From: an uncultured Pseudomonadales bacterium
Lineage (GTDB): Bacteria; Pseudomonadota; Gammaproteobacteria; Pseudomonadales; Porticoccaceae
NCBI GenBank assembly: GCA_943788895.1
Contig: CALSRZ010000001.1
Span: 186,001-250,000, forward strand
Direction: 5' to 3'
Length of the DNA: 64,000 bases
The notes beneath the pieces were generated by a model, which was not told the origin of the DNA, did not search any database, and saw only the letters and a program-made list of their open reading frames with translations. The first letter of the stretch is position 1. The number at the start of each line of letters is the position of its first letter. A program made the position numbers and the translations under genes. Shown here in pieces: positions 49,498-54,708 of this stretch.

Positions 49498-51363
49498 TTA
49501 TTTTAGTTTCTTTTCCAGAACGCCTTTAAGAAGGCTTTTTAGTGGGTCTGCCTCAGGCTGGTCGCCACTGTCTTTTTCAGTGACCGGTGTATCAAAAAGC
49601 TGTCCGCCTAGCTGTTGAAAAATACTGCCTTTAAGGAATTCTCTCACTAGGCTGTCATCTGGTTTGCAATTGGTCTTGCCATCTACTTCGTAACTGCCAC
49701 TGCAGATAAACGGCAAATCGCGATTGCGCAGAGTCTTATTTACCGAGCATCCAGAGGGGCTGGTAGTGGTGCCGTTAACTCTGGTATTGGCGGTAAGGTT
49801 GTAGCGTTTTAGCAATAACTGCACTGTGCCACGGCCACTGATAGAGAGGTTTCCGGTGGCTGTTTCCAAGTCCCTAATCAGCACCTTGCCATTGTTTAGG
49901 CTAAATTGGCTGCTCAGGGTTTCCAGCTCTGTGCCCTTTGACCAGGTTCTGTTGGATGGGCTACCGCCAAATAGGGCGGCGGCATTACAGAAGGTCTCTT
50001 CTGCATTAACAGCCAAATAAGTTGGGCTTAAAACAGTAAGCTGACCCCCGCCACTAAGTGCGCTGAGTATCTCGTCACTGCTGTTGCCGCTACCTTGTAG
50101 ATCAGCTTCCAGGCTAAGCAGGCCCGACAGATCACTGTTGTCGGCAATAGCCGGCAGGGCAAGCTCTAGATCTATATCTTTCAGCGAGCTTTGCAGCTCA
50201 AATACAGGGGTTGCAGAGCGCATATCCAGTCGCCCTGTTGCATTGACCTGGCCGCCAAAGAGGTCGGCATTTAACGAGCTTAATCGCAATACCCGATTGT
50301 TGCCGAACACATTGCTGTAGAAATTTTTCACTGCAAAATCATTAAATTTAATGCTGCTCAGGGTCATTTCAACCTGGCTCTGGCCATGCCAAAGTGCAAA
50401 GGGAATTGCCAGTGGTGCAAACAGGCCGCTGTTGTCAGCGTTGCTGCCAGATTTGGGCAGATAGTTTGATGCGTTGATATTATCGGCTGAAACAATGGTG
50501 GTGAGTTTGTTATCTGGCTGGTCTATTTGCAGGTCAATCGCAATGGCCTGGCCATCGAGAATTATTAGATTATTAATATCAGACAAAGCATTGGCATCAA
50601 CGCTAAAGCGACTTTCGATGCTGAGGTCGGTCAAGGCTGAGGGGTTGGCCATCTCAGGTACGCTGACAATAGGCAGTATTTCTGCTATCCGCTGCAGTTG
50701 CTGTATCAGACTAAAGTTGTTGGTCTGTAGATTGCCCTCAACAAAACTTAGGTTATCGCTGGCTTCAATGCTGCCATTTATCTCAATTTCATTTAGGCCA
50801 ATTGCCAGATCAGACAGGCTGAAGCTTTGTACTCTGCGGTTATCAATCATAACTGCAACAGAGGTATCTACGGCAAACTGCTGTCCACCAAGCGCCTGCA
50901 AGGACAGTGTGAGTGGGAACTCTGTGCTATCCAAACGGATATTGCTGGCTTTAAGGCTGATATTATCCAACTCTACCGGTAGGCTGTTTGGGGCTTTATA
51001 ATTGAGCTGGCCGCCGTTGATCTCCACGGAGCTAACGGTGAGCTGATTTGGGTCGATAATGATCGAGAACAGATCGGTCCAGGCCACTGAAAGGCTTAGC
51101 TTATCCAAGCTGCCAGAAGCAGCAACCTGGTCGGAAAAGCTAACCTGCTGAATGCTGATGCCCGGCTGAGGAAGAAATTTCCAGGCTAGATCGCCGTCAA
51201 TGGCGAGATCCCAACCCTGTTGGCTGGCCAGAGACTCAATATCTGTCTTGTAGCTGTTTATATCGACAGCCAATAGGATATAAATTATTGCAGCAGAAAA
51301 TAAAGTGACCACTGCGATTAGGCTAGTGGTCACCCATTTAAAAAAAATATTCACAGTCACCAA
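49498..51363 (-). CDS. AsmA family protein
   Basis: A 621-residue AsmA-type protein with one N-terminal membrane helix (about residues 8-32) and a long beta-rich periplasmic body. Family features are IDGDLAWKFLPQPGISIQQVSFSD near the N-terminus and the C-terminal AsmA repeat with FSLNNGKVLIRDLETATGNLSISGRGTVQL. A Cys pair within SGCSVNKTLRNRDLPFIC may form a disulfide. AsmA-like proteins are thought to bridge the periplasm for phospholipid transport to the outer membrane. The frame is intact over 1.9 kb. It is 26 bases before mutY on the same strand. Confidence 0.88.
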   Translation of the reverse strand: MVTVNIFFKWVTTSLIAVVTLFSAAIIYILLAVDINSYKTDIESLASQQGWDLAIDGDLAWKFLPQPGISIQQVSFSDQVAASGSLDKLSLSVAWTDLFSIIIDPNQLTVSSVEINGGQLNYKAPNSLPVELDNISLKASNIRLDSTEFPLTLSLQALGGQQFAVDTSVAVMIDNRRVQSFSLSDLAIGLNEIEINGSIEASDNLSFVEGNLQTNNFSLIQQLQRIAEILPIVSVPEMANPSALTDLSIESRFSVDANALSDINNLIILDGQAIAIDLQIDQPDNKLTTIVSADNINASNYLPKSGSNADNSGLFAPLAIPFALWHGQSQVEMTLSSIKFNDFAVKNFYSNVFGNNRVLRLSSLNADLFGGQVNATGRLDMRSATPVFELQSSLKDIDLELALPAIADNSDLSGLLSLEADLQGSGNSSDEILSALSGGGQLTVLSPTYLAVNAEETFCNAAALFGGSPSNRTWSKGTELETLSSQFSLNNGKVLIRDLETATGNLSISGRGTVQLLLKRYNLTANTRVNGTTTSPSGCSVNKTLRNRDLPFICSGSYEVDGKTNCKPDDSLVREFLKGSIFQQLGGQLFDTPVTEKDSGDQPEADPLKSLLKGVLEKKLK

Positions 51364-51438
51364 CGGTTTAAGGGTTGCTTTGGGAGCCTCATATTACATC
51401 AAAGAGTACAACCCTTAAACACTGGAAAAGGCTAAGCT

Positions 51439-53703
51439 CTAGAAAGAGTAGCTCGCTCTTAAGCCCAGGTTTCTGCCGGACATTGGCACTTCGTCCTTAA
51501 CAAATGAGCTGTGATTTCTTGCAGCTTCATTCAGCAGATTTTTGCCGAACAATGACAGGGTTAATTCGTGCCCTGGGCTAGTCTCAACTGTTTTTGATAG
51601 ATTCAGATTTAATATTTGGAATCCATCTGTCGCAGTTTCGTTTTCAGCCGTAGCATTCTGGACTGATACATCCTTTAGAGACAGTGCAAACTTAAGACCA
51701 TCTTCCACATAGGCAACTCGGTATAAGTCTCTATCCGGGGTTATACGTGGAATGTTTGACCCGTCGGTAAACTCTCCTGAAACCGAATCTCTTCCGTATG
51801 AAAGCGTTAGTGCGCCACGAGCAAGGTCAAAGGTCTTGCCTAGTTCAATTTCATAGCCGTCAAACTCAGCGTCTTGCTGAAGATAGTTGGCAAGAATTAA
51901 ACCGCCATGATGCTCTTCCTCTTCATGCTCCTCATGCTCTTCTTCAGTCTCATCCATTAGGTAGATATAGTTATCTACATCATTTTGGAAGAAGGTCAGG
52001 GCAGCAAAGAATCCATTCTTTTCATAGTTAAAGCTCAGATCGATATTGTTGGATTTTTCTGACGCCAGGTTGAAATTACCAATCTCTACTCGCCCTGTTG
52101 CCAGATGAGGCCCATTCATTAATAACTCAACCGCTGTAGGTGCTCTTTCGACAGAGGCCAGTCCAAAACTCACCTCTAGTGAATCATTAATATTTCTGCT
52201 TAGAGTCAGGGCATAACTAGTAGTGTCGATATCCCGATCAAAATACTCCAGCTCTTCTTCATGCTCGTCTTCGTGCTCTTCCTCATGTCCCTCTTCATGC
52301 TCTTCTTCATGGCTGACAGAACCTTTTCTGGAAATTTGATCATGTCTAATACCAAAGTCGGCATGAAATAAGTCAAAGTCTTTGCTCAGATAGTAACCAA
52401 GGGTTATTTCTTCGCTTTCCGTTGGGTTGATAAAGGCCTCTTCGCCAATAACAGAAATATCTTCAACCACAAAATTCACGGCGATTTTTTGAGAGACGGA
52501 ATCATTGGCTAGGTCAAAAATTGCACCATATTCTCTGGCTTCATTACTGAATGTTGTTGGGCCCTCTTCGTGATGCTCGCCTTCATGTTCCTCACCTTCG
52601 TGCTCTTCACCCTCTTCATCATGTCCTTCTTCTTCGGCATGTTGCTCTGTGTGTGAATAATCGGAATCTCTGAAGTGATAGTCGATTTTTGATAACCAGC
52701 TGTTTCCTAAAACAAAAGAGCCTTCTAGATTGATGATATTAGACTCAGTTGTGGAGAAGATTCTTTCGCCTTCGTGTTCATCTTCATGGCCTTCTTCGTC
52801 TTCATGGCCCTCTTCTCCGGCATGTTCATCTTCATGTCCTTCATGGCCTTCGCCATGAAAAGGAATACCGTAAACATTTTCTATGTCGCTCACAGACAGT
52901 CCGAAATATCCCCAATCTCCGGTCTTGGATATACCTACTCTTTTAGAGGTGGACGCGATATCAGAGTTAGGCAGGTAACCTAAATCTTCTTCGTGCTCTT
53001 CACCCTCGTGCTCCTCTGCATGATCTTCATCTGCATGCTCCTCACCTTCGTGCTCTTCCTCATGATGAACAACTGCGCCATCTGGAATATCAAAGTCGCC
53101 GAACTGAGAGTCTTTGTAAGCAGCGCTGATATTCAAGCCACCGATATTGTTTTGGTAAGAGAAGTCGTGAGAGTCGCCATCATTGACCGACTGAGCTTCT
53201 AAGCCCAGCTTAAACTTTGATTCTGTAAAGTCTTTTCGGGCAATGGTGTTATCAACCACATTCACTATTCCGCCAATGGTTCCGTTGGAATAAAGTAGTG
53301 ACGATGGGCCTCTGACAATTTCGATTTGCTGGATGTTATTTAAATCAACATCATTGACATGATCCGGACCCAAACCTGAAACATCTCTGACCACTACGCC
53401 ATTATTGAGAACCTTTACTCTGGATCCCGACATGCCTCGGATAATCGGTTGGCCAACAGCGGCACCATAATCACTGGTGGATATGCCGACTAAGCTATCA
53501 ATACTGGCACCAATGCTTTGGCTTGCATCAGTAGCGATAGATTCGCCATTGATAACATGCAGTGGGTTTGAGATTTCATCTGACGTGGCATCAATCAACG
53601 ATGATGTGATAATAACTTCTTCTATATTGCTGTTTGCGCTCACTGATAGTGGCGCCAGCAGAGCAGCCACAGCCAGAGCTGCAACGTATTTTGGAGTATA
53701 CAT
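51439..53703 (-). CDS. TonB-dependent receptor with five His/Glu/Asp-rich loops (probable zinc or metal uptake)
   Basis: A 754-residue outer-membrane receptor with a signal peptide (1-23), a plug domain (about 30-155; VVRDVSGLGPDHVNDVDL, IEIVRGPSSLLYSNGTIGG) and a 22-strand-type barrel ending in YSF, the usual C-terminal aromatic. Five tracts made almost only of His, Glu, Asp and Gly interrupt the barrel at about residues 212-240, 283-313, 351-380, 464-487 and 585-599. Their spacing suits extracellular loops. His-rich loops occur in ZnuD-type zinc receptors, so a transition-metal substrate is inferred. A small secreted His/Cys protein gene lies 45 bases upstream. The DNA of the tracts is repetitive. 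Confidence 0.88.
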   Translation of the reverse strand: MYTPKYVAALAVAALLAPLSVSANSNIEEVIITSSLIDATSDEISNPLHVINGESIATDASQSIGASIDSLVGISTSDYGAAVGQPIIRGMSGSRVKVLNNGVVVRDVSGLGPDHVNDVDLNNIQQIEIVRGPSSLLYSNGTIGGIVNVVDNTIARKDFTESKFKLGLEAQSVNDGDSHDFSYQNNIGGLNISAAYKDSQFGDFDIPDGAVVHHEEEHEGEEHADEDHAEEHEGEEHEEDLGYLPNSDIASTSKRVGISKTGDWGYFGLSVSDIENVYGIPFHGEGHEGHEDEHAGEEGHEDEEGHEDEHEGERIFSTTESNIINLEGSFVLGNSWLSKIDYHFRDSDYSHTEQHAEEEGHDEEGEEHEGEEHEGEHHEEGPTTFSNEAREYGAIFDLANDSVSQKIAVNFVVEDISVIGEEAFINPTESEEITLGYYLSKDFDLFHADFGIRHDQISRKGSVSHEEEHEEGHEEEHEDEHEEELEYFDRDIDTTSYALTLSRNINDSLEVSFGLASVERAPTAVELLMNGPHLATGRVEIGNFNLASEKSNNIDLSFNYEKNGFFAALTFFQNDVDNYIYLMDETEEEHEEHEEEEHHGGLILANYLQQDAEFDGYEIELGKTFDLARGALTLSYGRDSVSGEFTDGSNIPRITPDRDLYRVAYVEDGLKFALSLKDVSVQNATAENETATDGFQILNLNLSKTVETSPGHELTLSLFGKNLLNEAARNHSSFVKDEVPMSGRNLGLRASYSF

Positions 53704-53748
53704 TTTTATACCTTTTACTTAAAAAATTAGAGTTGTAGAGTTAAATTT

Positions 53749-54024
53749 TTAAGCGTTAGAGGGCGGTGCTCTGGAAAGGTAAAGGGAGAACTTCTGGGAA
53801 GATTTAGCCGTGCTGAAGACGGCTATTGCAACTGTGGGTGCAACCAGAATAGCGGCACTGCTATCAGGATTGACGATAACGGTGGATTCTTGAAAGCAAA
53901 TACTACAGCTGCCTTCTTGATGGTCGCGATCTCCATCAATATGGCTATGGGCAGATGTAACAACAGACCCAAGCCCTAAAATTAGGCTCAGTGCGACTGC
54001 TACTATCCATCTATAGTTTTTCAT
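53749..54024 (-). CDS. Small secreted His/Cys protein (DUF2946-like)
   Basis: A 91-residue protein with a signal peptide (about 1-25, cleavage near SAHS). The mature N-terminus is HIDGDRDHQEGSCSICFQES, combining H-x-H, D-x-H and a CxxC pair. A hydrophobic helix (about 55-72) follows and the C-terminus ends SRAPPSNA; a RAPP end is seen in DUF2946 proteins. It starts at ATG 54024, 45 bases before the metal-type TonB receptor, so both are probably one operon. Metal binding in the periplasm is plausible but inferred. A 5-bp inverted repeat (GTGAT-tgt-ATCAC, 54029-54041) lies just upstream. Confidence 0.7.
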   Translation of the reverse strand: MKNYRWIVAVALSLILGLGSVVTSAHSHIDGDRDHQEGSCSICFQESTVIVNPDSSAAILVAPTVAIAVFSTAKSSQKFSLYLSRAPPSNA

Positions 54025-54028
54025 GCGC

Positions 54029-54041
54029 GTGATTGTATCAC
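54029..54041. promoter_or_regulatory. Short inverted repeat upstream of metal-uptake operon
   Basis: GTGATTGTATCAC has 5-base inverted arms and a 3-base centre, immediately before the small secreted protein's start codon on the minus strand. It could be a repressor site (for example Zur or another regulator), but it does not match the Zur consensus I know and could be chance. Confidence 0.3.
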
Positions 54042-54073
54042 CTAATTGTTTCGGAAATATAAAAAATTCTGGT

Positions 54074-54079
54074 TATAAT
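54074..54079 (+). promoter_or_regulatory. Possible -10 box of hisB
   Basis: A perfect TATAAT located 36 bases before the hisB ATG. No good -35 box lies 16-18 bases upstream, so the promoter may be weak or depend on an activator. Confidence 0.35.
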
Positions 54080-54114
54080 GCGCTTTTGAAATGAGTCTGA
54101 CGTTGGAGAACACC

Positions 54115-54708
54115 ATGGCTGATCGCATTGCGACAGTGACACGCAATACCCTAGAATCACAGATTACAGTGACCGTTAATCTGGATGGAACAGGTAAAGC
54201 AAACTTTGCTACACCTGTGCCTTTCCTAGAGCATATGCTTGACCAGATTGCCCGCCACGGCTTGGTGGATCTGGATATCCAAGCGAAGGGTGATACCCAT
54301 ATTGACGACCACCACACGGTTGAAGATATTGGCATAACGCTGGGTATGGCGATCGCTAAAGCGATTGGCGACAAGAAAGGCCTAACTCGCTATGGCCACG
54401 CCTATGTACCATTGGATGAAGCGCTGTCTCGTGTAGTGATGGATTTTTCTGGCCGTCCAGGTCTGATTATGAAAGCGGATTTTGTCCGCAGCCATGTCGG
54501 CAGTTTTGATGTTGACCTGGTACGTGAGTTCTTTCAGGGCTTTGTAAACCACGCGCTGGTTTCGTTGCACATCGATAACCTGCGCGGCGCCAATGCTCAC
54601 CACCAGGTCGAGACCATCTTTAAGGCCTTTGGTCGCGCACTGCGCGTAGCAGCAACTGCTGATGAACGCATGGCCGGTGTAATGCCGTCTACAAAAGGTA
54701 CTCTCTAA
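54115..54708 (+). CDS. hisB: Imidazoleglycerol-phosphate dehydratase
   Basis: A 197-residue single-domain dehydratase, without the N-terminal histidinol-phosphatase half found in E. coli HisB. It catalyses the sixth step of histidine synthesis. Metal-binding motifs [39 protein letters not shown] and GANAHHQVE are all present. ATG 54115 ([10 protein letters not shown]) with GGAG upstream is chosen over 54091. hisH follows, but a hairpin with T-run sits on the stop codon between them. Confidence 0.97.

Follow-up and report, generated by a model that had tools for sequence, protein, structure and literature searches.

What does a gene for a small, seemingly exported protein do directly in front of a gene for a TonB-dependent receptor? 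The question is raised by a 64,000-nucleotide stretch of DNA, here called the window, of contig CALSRZ010000001.1 (positions 186,001 to 250,000, assembly GCA_943788895.1) from an uncultured Pseudomonadales bacterium. Its genome measures 1.95 Mb and has Porticoccaceae and gamma proteobacterium HTCC2207 as its nearest named relatives, with SAR86 more distant; we call it SAR92-like. A preliminary description took the small protein for a secreted partner of the receptor in metal capture and hand-over. Both open reading frames (ORFs) lie where it had placed them, and the most informative feature of the small gene is one that it passed over, a C-terminal Arg-Ala-Pro-Pro motif (RAPP). We consider it likely that the small gene is an upstream open reading frame (uORF) whose nascent chain is a metal sensor of the CruR type, and that it controls a ZnuD-like receptor. 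CruR (Bp2923), a DUF2946 uORF, is reported to control the copper TonB receptor CrtA/BfrG of Bordetella pertussis (PMC9426467; PMC12914433). The two genes and the motifs of the smaller one are the following:

53749..54024 (-): uORF encoding a 91-aa protein, the proposed metal-sensing arrest peptide, with a signal-like N-terminus by eye
53941..53949 (-): H-S-H codons (uORF residues 26-28), first part of the presumed metal sensor
53896..53907 (-): C-S-I-C codons (uORF residues 40-43), second part of the presumed metal sensor
53761..53772 (-): R-A-P-P codons (uORF residues 85-88), presumed ribosome-arrest motif, its function taken from PMC9426467 and PMC12992588
51439..53703 (-): ZnuD-like TonB-dependent receptor of 754 aa, with ATG start, plug at aa 43-146, a 22-strand barrel in the model and a C-terminal Phe; signal peptide by eye

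A 41-residue linker joins C-S-I-C to RAPP, a 3-residue tail follows (the end reads SRAPPSNA), and 45 nt separate the uORF stop from the receptor ATG. The H-x-H and CxxC described earlier are present, while the D-x-H quoted with them is in fact D-x-D-H (D-R-D-H).

RAPP is needed for CruR function (PMC9426467). Arrest by CruR has been reported in vitro, and RAPP or RGPP uORFs are described as widespread before TonB receptors, forming a general class with a signal sequence, a C-terminal RAPP/RGPP and a TonB receptor downstream (EMBO J 2025, PMC12992588). The window uORF has these features, the signal sequence being recognised by eye and the arrest itself predicted. Like CruR, it comes first in an operon before a TonB-dependent receptor, carries CxxC and a C-terminal RAPP at near-fixed spacing, and has a bubble in which C exceeds G (C>G); towards its 3' end C is plentiful and G scarce, which is likewise the case in Bordetella CruR. 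The two differ in other respects. CruR has the C-x-Y-C form of CxxC, whereas here the form is another one, lost in 30/77 uORFs while a Cys at -44 to -49 stays. The target of CruR is CrtA and not a ZnuD-like receptor, the metal here being probably zinc, and the gap to the receptor is 162 bp in CruR as against 45 nt here, where a stem over the Shine-Dalgarno (SD) sequence is predicted.

Two further systems resemble the window in part. CutF of Rhodobacter capsulatus is likewise described as a metal sensor that acts as an exported nascent chain, and its translation is reported to open a stem shielding the SD of the next gene (PMC9973294). Sensing has been proposed to be periplasmic in CutF, whereas for CruR it is reported to be cytoplasmic. 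It senses copper with CxxxC and a proline-rich end, in place of which the window uORF has CxxC and RAPP, and copper switches its target on, whereas here metal should switch an importer off. SecM-secA shares the RAxP arrest and the SD-sequestering stem, but SecM senses secretion and not metal, with a different arrest sequence (PMC10987492). The main text of PMC12992588 makes no mention of zinc, Shine-Dalgarno, hairpin or stem-loop (ZnuD was not searched for there), and that of the CruR paper none of Shine-Dalgarno; the latter states that for Cu and Zn riboswitches have not been described (PMC9426467). No zinc case among arrest or leader peptides was found among the literature matches listed, which is not proof of absence.

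How general is the arrangement? We collected 128 receptor loci in three rounds (48 + 30 + 50), 109 of them usable; of the 19 excluded, 13 had less than 700 nt of upstream DNA and the remainder duplicated an upstream stretch of 400 nt. The near-identical pairs L014/L015, L036/L050 and L028/L040 were retained, and L112, L122, L125 and L128, which look like a different, N-terminally extended receptor, were counted as loci without RAPP ORF. An upstream ORF of at least 70 aa that ends in R-[AG]-P-P plus at most 14 further residues was accepted as a uORF. Such an ORF was found at 77/109 loci when the match start was taken as gene start, and at 82/109 with corrected gene starts (L051, L052, L054, L055 and L103 being added); the gene pair is thus kept in other genomes, where the preliminary description had proposed to look for it. 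The motif controls, the anatomy of 76 distinct uORFs and the stem test given below rest on the 77-locus count. Altered motifs were found at 1 ([AGSTVLIP][AG]PP), 1 ([KHNQED][AG]PP), 4 (PP[AG]R), 0, 0 and 0 of the 109 loci, the antisense strand gave 0/109, and a RAPP/RGPP uORF precedes 0/17 of the other TonB receptor loci of this genome. L104, with a 16-residue tail, and L140, with runs of N, lie just outside the rule. In a quick, midpoint-rooted tree of 102 distinct receptors, in which several long-branch joins including that of L019 were flagged, one clade of 44 (Shimodaira-Hasegawa approximate likelihood-ratio test, SH-aLRT, 100) contains the window receptor and every row with five His/acid tracts. 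Forty of its 42 rows with upstream DNA have the uORF, the other two, L083 and L134, being without RAPP; for two more rows only 0 and 69 nt of upstream DNA are available.

Some loci vary the motif or its setting. L083 (upstream of 1494) has the same peptide with QAPP and L109 (upstream of 1452) a His/CxxC peptide ending in QAP, both possible natural losses of arrest. The record of L018 is titled Crocinitomicaceae; its receptor groups in the SAR86/SAR92 clade and its uORF is of the same design, and the contig is probably mis-binned. Flavobacterial loci (L051:4217-4540, L052:4140-4472, L053, L054:4376-4681, L055:4119-4445 and L056) have RGPP-ending uORFs with a repeated His/Cys pattern. CxxC is absent in 5/6 of these and the downstream receptors have one or two tracts, a separate sensor design.

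In the 76 distinct uORFs, R, P and P of the motif are invariant, and its second position is occupied by A in 88% and otherwise by G. At 44-49 residues before R a Cys is present in 76/76. The linker (positions -41 to -5) has no residue above about a third, and the distance from CxxC to RAPP takes the values 40 (2 uORFs), 41 (16), 42 (12), 43 (10), 44 (6) and 45 (1). Against the sister genome, the nonsynonymous and synonymous changed codons number 1 and 1 in the sensor (first 47 codons), 12 and 2 in the linker, and 1 and 4 in the last 15 codons. A drifting linker of near-fixed length agrees with the findings reported for CruR, where frameshifting the stretch before RAPP was harmless and five extra residues strongly reduced the response (PMC9426467).

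The sensor half also separates these uORFs from the DUF2946 family. Matches to DUF2946 were found in 32/244 genomes sampled from the order, and among the 30 loci kept all 20 RAPP frames with CxxC read C-x-Y-C, with spacing 44-46. C-x-Y-C is diagnostic, being present in 20/20 of those uORFs and in 0/76 here. H-x-H, present in 53/76 here and in 8/20 DUF2946 uORFs, is not diagnostic, and we dropped it as a hallmark. There is no DUF2946 match above cut-off in the window's own genome, so no classical CruR is available there for comparison. A chimeric origin of the window uORF is not claimed, since it rests on 12 residues. The sensors of L138, L139, L091 and L092 are expanded and His-rich, with the Cys 47 residues before RAPP, and those of L139 and L138 contain repeated GEH/DGH units; they form a natural variant series.

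What does the receptor transport? Its His/acid tracts were defined by 15-residue windows in which H/E/D/G make up 75% or more and His occurs three times or more, so that counts are minimum values wherever a tract is short:

52978..53082 (-): tract 1, aa 208-242, 35 residues, on predicted extracellular loop L2 (strands 3-4)
52762..52869 (-): tract 2, aa 279-314, 36 residues, on predicted extracellular loop L3 (strands 5-6)
52552..52653 (-): tract 3, aa 351-384, 34 residues, on predicted extracellular loop L4 (strands 7-8)
52243..52323 (-): tract 4, aa 461-487, 27 residues, on predicted extracellular loop L6 (strands 11-12)
51892..51954 (-): tract 5, aa 584-604, 21 residues, on predicted extracellular loop L8 (strands 15-16)

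All five tracts of the preliminary description are thus present, at 21-36 residues somewhat longer than the 15-31 it gave. They total 153 residues, with 30 His and 76 Asp+Glu. Shuffles of the receptor with the same composition (n=2000) averaged 0.035 tracts, with a maximum of 2, and of the window's 136 stop-to-stop frames with a length of 100 aa or more, that of the receptor alone bears tracts. The 44-row clade has 0 (1 row), 2 (2), 3 (4), 4 (15) or 5 (22) tracts; the 58 other receptors have 0 (10), 1 (23), 2 (17), 3 (7) or 4 (1).

The receptor consists of plug and barrel domains, and its best NCBIfam match among the models listed is ZnuD NF038289 (207.7 bits, E 3.6e-61), below the curated cut-off of 950. 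An AlphaFold2 model from a 34-sequence alignment (broken-frame L021, L022 and fragments excluded) has a mean predicted local distance difference test of 79 and a predicted template-modelling score of 0.81. It shows 22 barrel strands and sets all five tracts on extracellular loops by strand parity, counted from the C-terminal strand with its end periplasmic; this is our own topology count. The periplasmic placement that the preliminary description had named as speaking against it is therefore not what the model shows. Low-confidence stretches lie within all five tracts, as expected for flexible loops. In Foldseek the ZnuD entries come out on top (E 1.2e-42 to 4.9e-41), with 4rdr, the best solved relative, at rank 1 (TMt 0.78), followed by OprC and the haem receptor PhuR, tied at 1.1e-28. 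Opposite D114, H115 and H533 the ZnuD chain has a D-H pair and an H, which by an inferred numbering offset of 14 would be D99, H100 and H499 of the reported zinc ligands D99, H100, E340 and H499 (PMC4557270). E340 falls in an unaligned part, so that three of the four ligands were tentatively mapped. In the alignment D114 is kept in 32/34 rows, H115 in 34/34 and H533 in 34/34.

The modelled fold, together with presumed counterparts of three of the four zinc ligands, speaks for a receptor of ZnuD type, as proposed earlier, and we take it for an outer-membrane metal receptor whose metal is probably zinc. With ZnuD of Neisseria meningitidis (4rdr, 4rdt, 4rvw; PMC4557270) it shares the fold, the D-H plug motif and loop His; Zur control is reported for ZnuD and suggested here by boxes in relatives. 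Identity over the structural alignment is about 21%, and ZnuD is described with one metal-sensing loop 3, as against five long His/acid loops here.

For the metal itself, we lean towards zinc on the basis of receptor type, Zur-like boxes and MerC neighbours. A Zur-like box was defined as 9 or 10 of 10 positions of GTTATNNNATAAC at a distance of at most 300 nt. With uncorrected regions, 8/32 uORF-less and 6/77 uORF-bearing loci have one (shuffles, 0.4 and 1.4); with corrected starts, the numbers are 10 loci without uORF and 6 with it. As 7 of the 32 "uORF-less" loci really have a uORF, boxes stand at about 10/25 of the loci that truly have none. These counts include the near-duplicate pairs named above and same-genus rows. 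The window has a candidate of its own:

54029..54041 (-): GTGATACAATCAC, perfect palindrome and candidate Zur box, 4 nt upstream of the uORF start

The genome has 6 GTKATNNNATMAC sites, this one included; reversing the pattern as a control gives 5. This degenerate pattern was chosen after the palindrome had been seen and is supported by the E. coli znuA-znuC box GTGATATTATAAC. A second site, a perfect box, lies between znuA and the presumed zur, which belongs to the Fur family; of the remaining four, L177 and L180 adjoin hemA-like and ribosomal-protein genes (names by eye). We do not claim conserved Zur control of the window operon, as the palindrome is weak alone and half lost in the sister; it is a candidate only. 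Among the 10 neighbouring genes on which Pfam was run, a MerC-domain gene is next downstream of the receptor in L014:8510-8911, L018:2850-3266 and L020:8217-8639 (gaps of 392, 104 and 48 nt), and its product is possibly the inner-membrane step for a group-12 metal. L155 also has a MerC-like-looking ORF after the receptor (by eye). Nothing on this arrangement appears among the literature matches listed for marine ZnuD, for zinc in combination with SAR92 or SAR86, or for MerC together with Zur.

Copper is the alternative that survives best, although we find it doubtful. The arrest mechanism would be the same, the metal that of CruR/CrtA, and the His/acid loops would collect copper. CruR and CutF are both reported to respond to copper (PMC9426467, PMC9973294), the window uORF has CxxC, and OprC is the next metal-receptor fold match. 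In L012:3108-5587 (SAR86), CtaA (COX15-CtaA) and SCO1, which flank a third gene, run same-strand into the uORF-receptor pair, and a CtaA gene lies nearby on the other strand in L017. Yet ZnuD outranks OprC as fold match (1.2e-42 vs 1.1e-28), the TonB-copper model reaches only 42 bits against a cut-off of 472, and the receptor, with no Cys, 5 Met and 39 His, is unlike OprC, which uses Cys/Met/His. The C-x-Y-C difference and the Zur-like boxes at several relatives also speak against copper, as do the flavobacterial RGPP uORFs, since copper-related RAPP uORFs are reported to be lacking in Bacteroidota (PMC12992588).

How would an arrested ribosome act on the receptor? Four elements of the mRNA bear on this:

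53776..53781 (-): UACCUU, 5' arm of the predicted SD-sequestering stem, under a ribosome stalled at RAPP
53709..53714 (-): AAGGUA, 3' arm of this predicted stem; its AAGG is the Shine-Dalgarno of the receptor
53717..53754 (-): A/U-rich hairpin inside the SD stem, with arms at 53746-53754 and 53717-53725
53749..53898 (-): C>G bubble, candidate Rho-utilisation region, the last 150 nt of the uORF, with C minus G of +16%

The stem test covered 67/76 distinct uORFs, with SD assigned by rule and a gap of 15-130 nt, and the footprint of a ribosome stalled at RAPP was taken to reach from 12 nt ahead of the first RAPP base to 24 nt beyond it. Predicted pairing of the SD with this footprint has a mean probability of 0.79, compared with 0.21 when the upstream segment is shuffled. 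It exceeds 0.5 in 64/67 loci (window, 0.88); against 40 shuffles per locus, 42/67 loci lie at or below 5% and 63/67 at or below 20%. In 68 other genes SD pairing with a broader stretch, -81 to -30, averages 0.35. By eye in the alignments, the stem partners vary from clade to clade. The window joins UACCUU to AAGGUA, the one-tract receptors of the genus join ACCUGUAA to UUACAGGU, and the other five-tract receptors of the chromosomal slot described below join CCUCUAAA to UUUAGAGG; among these, L010 and L071 have CCUUUAAA and UUUAAAGG instead, a C-G to U-A exchange. In several SAR86 loci the Pro-Pro codons CCUCCU themselves pair with GGAGG (by eye). RNAalifold returns the SD stem in 3/6 groups (slot five-tract, one-tract of the genus, window pair). 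It lists 3, 3 and 1 pairs with double changes in three groups, stem membership unspecified; by eye, one is in the stem (L010, L071).

The uORF could also work solely through Rho-dependent termination, as in CruR, the SD stem being incidental. In the last 150 nt of the uORF C exceeds G in 75/76 cases (mean +12.4%, as against -3.2% in the receptor), the +16% of the window is matched by 4/1428 overlapping 150-nt windows in local genes, Rho is encoded in the genome, and RNAalifold misses the stem in half of the groups. Against this stand the short 45-nt gap, the excess of SD-footprint pairing over shuffled segments, the clade-specific stems and the exchange in L010 and L071, and we regard termination as the only output as unlikely. 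Given the predicted stem, the bubble and the presence of Rho, this locus seems able to use an arrest in both of the published ways, by shielding a Shine-Dalgarno as SecM and CutF do and through Rho as CruR does, and the two may act together. In the DUF2946 uORFs of the order (L182-L208; n=20), SD-footprint pairing averages 0.60 against 0.13 shuffled; because that set has it too, the stem may be general and not special to this group.

From the computed motif, spacing, mRNA pairing, C>G bubble, loop placement and conservation we infer arrest, metal binding, polarity and metal identity as follows. We hypothesize that divalent metal, with zinc the likeliest, is gathered on the cell surface by the five His/acid loops, moves on to the buried D-H...H site and is imported by the action of TonB. 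Under metal shortage, the ribosome on the uORF would stall at the C-terminal RAPP, cover the mRNA segment that otherwise pairs with the receptor SD, and also shield the C-rich Rho-loading region, so that receptor is made. When metal is plentiful, the H-x-H...C-x-x-C of the nascent chain, just out of the ribosome or the Sec channel, would bind it; binding would fold or pull the chain and release the arrest. The ribosome would then finish, the stem would form, Rho may terminate transcription, and the receptor would be off.

Several observations weigh against this CruR-type control of a zinc receptor. About a quarter of the 109 loci have no RAPP ORF. CxxC is missing from 30/77 uORFs, so that the group as a whole has not kept the CruR sensor. 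The spacing is 45 in CruR and 41 in the window (group 40-45), outside a tolerance of one or two residues. With DUF2946 (PF11162) the window uORF scores 16.0 bits (E 0.022), under the gathering score of 23.7, and one relative (G096, same uORF as L110) scores 22.4 bits (E 4.3e-4), also under it. As to the mRNA, the segment used initially (RAPP start to stop+12) gave pairing above 0.5 in 58/67 loci and 0.0 in the window, and it was widened to the footprint once these values had been seen. Overall SD pairing is ordinary (0.85 observed, 0.76 shuffled), only the partner being unusual, and start codons were picked by best Shine-Dalgarno match. RNAalifold does not return the stem in the g10, u42 and SAR86 groups, where single-sequence folds do pair the Shine-Dalgarno with the footprint. 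As to the metal, 30/300 promoter shuffles score as high as the GTGATACAATCAC palindrome, half of which the sister genome has lost, and to these are added the SCO1-CtaA run of L012 and the copper response of CruR and CutF.

Could the small protein be, as first proposed, a secreted periplasmic metallochaperone that carries metal from the receptor to an inner-membrane transporter? It has a hydrophobic, signal-like N-terminus (by eye in 14 aligned), followed by the frequent H-x-H and the constant Cys, and the pair is conserved. However, the best conserved residues are R, A/G, P and P at the extreme C-terminus, the linker drifts yet holds its length, and the receptor's SD is tied to the mRNA of the small gene; RAPP, moreover, is the element required in CruR and arresting in vitro. 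Mature CruR is considered short-lived by its authors (PMC9426467), and the similar CutF, first conjectured to be a chaperone, was later reported as a nascent regulator (PMC9973294). We therefore reject the hand-over role, which seems to us very improbable: what is conserved, namely the C-terminal RAPP at a near-fixed distance, the SD-linked mRNA and the C>G bubble, fits an arrest regulator. Least probable of all is import of haem or an organic metal complex instead of free metal: a haem receptor model matches weakly (TIGR01785, 5.1e-30, 104.5 bits, cut-off 316.85) and PhuR ties with OprC in the fold search, but ZnuD is reported not to bind haem despite a shared His pair (PMC4557270), and His/acid tracts and Zur-like boxes fit metal.

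The uORF and receptor of the window occupy a slot, hisB - [uORF + receptor] - asmA - mutY, that recurs in the family (window 49498-54708; loci L158-L168) and holds either a one-tract or a five-tract receptor. By hisB detection, 16 loci of the five-tract clade and 24 others are in the slot (gene names partly from homology). In their sensor halves, slot five-tract uORFs have a mean identity of 36% (maximum 65%) with those of slot one-tract uORFs, and of 10% (maximum 22%) with those of five-tract uORFs elsewhere. The simplest reading of these sequences is that the receptor was replaced in place downstream of a resident uORF sensor, a plausible step if the two receptors carry one and the same metal. 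On that reading, the sensor and the transporter would be modules that can be exchanged.

It is tempting to go further and propose a subfamily of RAPP uORFs with a zinc-sensing H-x-H...C(xxC), probably reading metal on the periplasmic side, that controls a ZnuD-type receptor through the SD stem, Rho or both and replaces or backs up Zur in bacteria of the surface ocean such as SAR92 and SAR86, the slot sensor having apparently been kept while the receptor was swapped; we hold this broader proposal at slightly less than an even chance. The experimentally studied metal-sensing arrest uORFs in the papers cited, CruR and CutF, are both copper-responsive. If the sensor described here reads zinc, it would be a translational zinc switch at the outer-membrane step, where control is usually assigned to Zur. 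The 76 distinct uORFs, with spacings of 40-45, CxxC kept or lost and clade-specific stems, form a natural mutational data set on how a nascent chain reads metal. Some His-rich small secreted proteins encoded beside TonB receptors should accordingly be annotated as regulators and not as chaperones.

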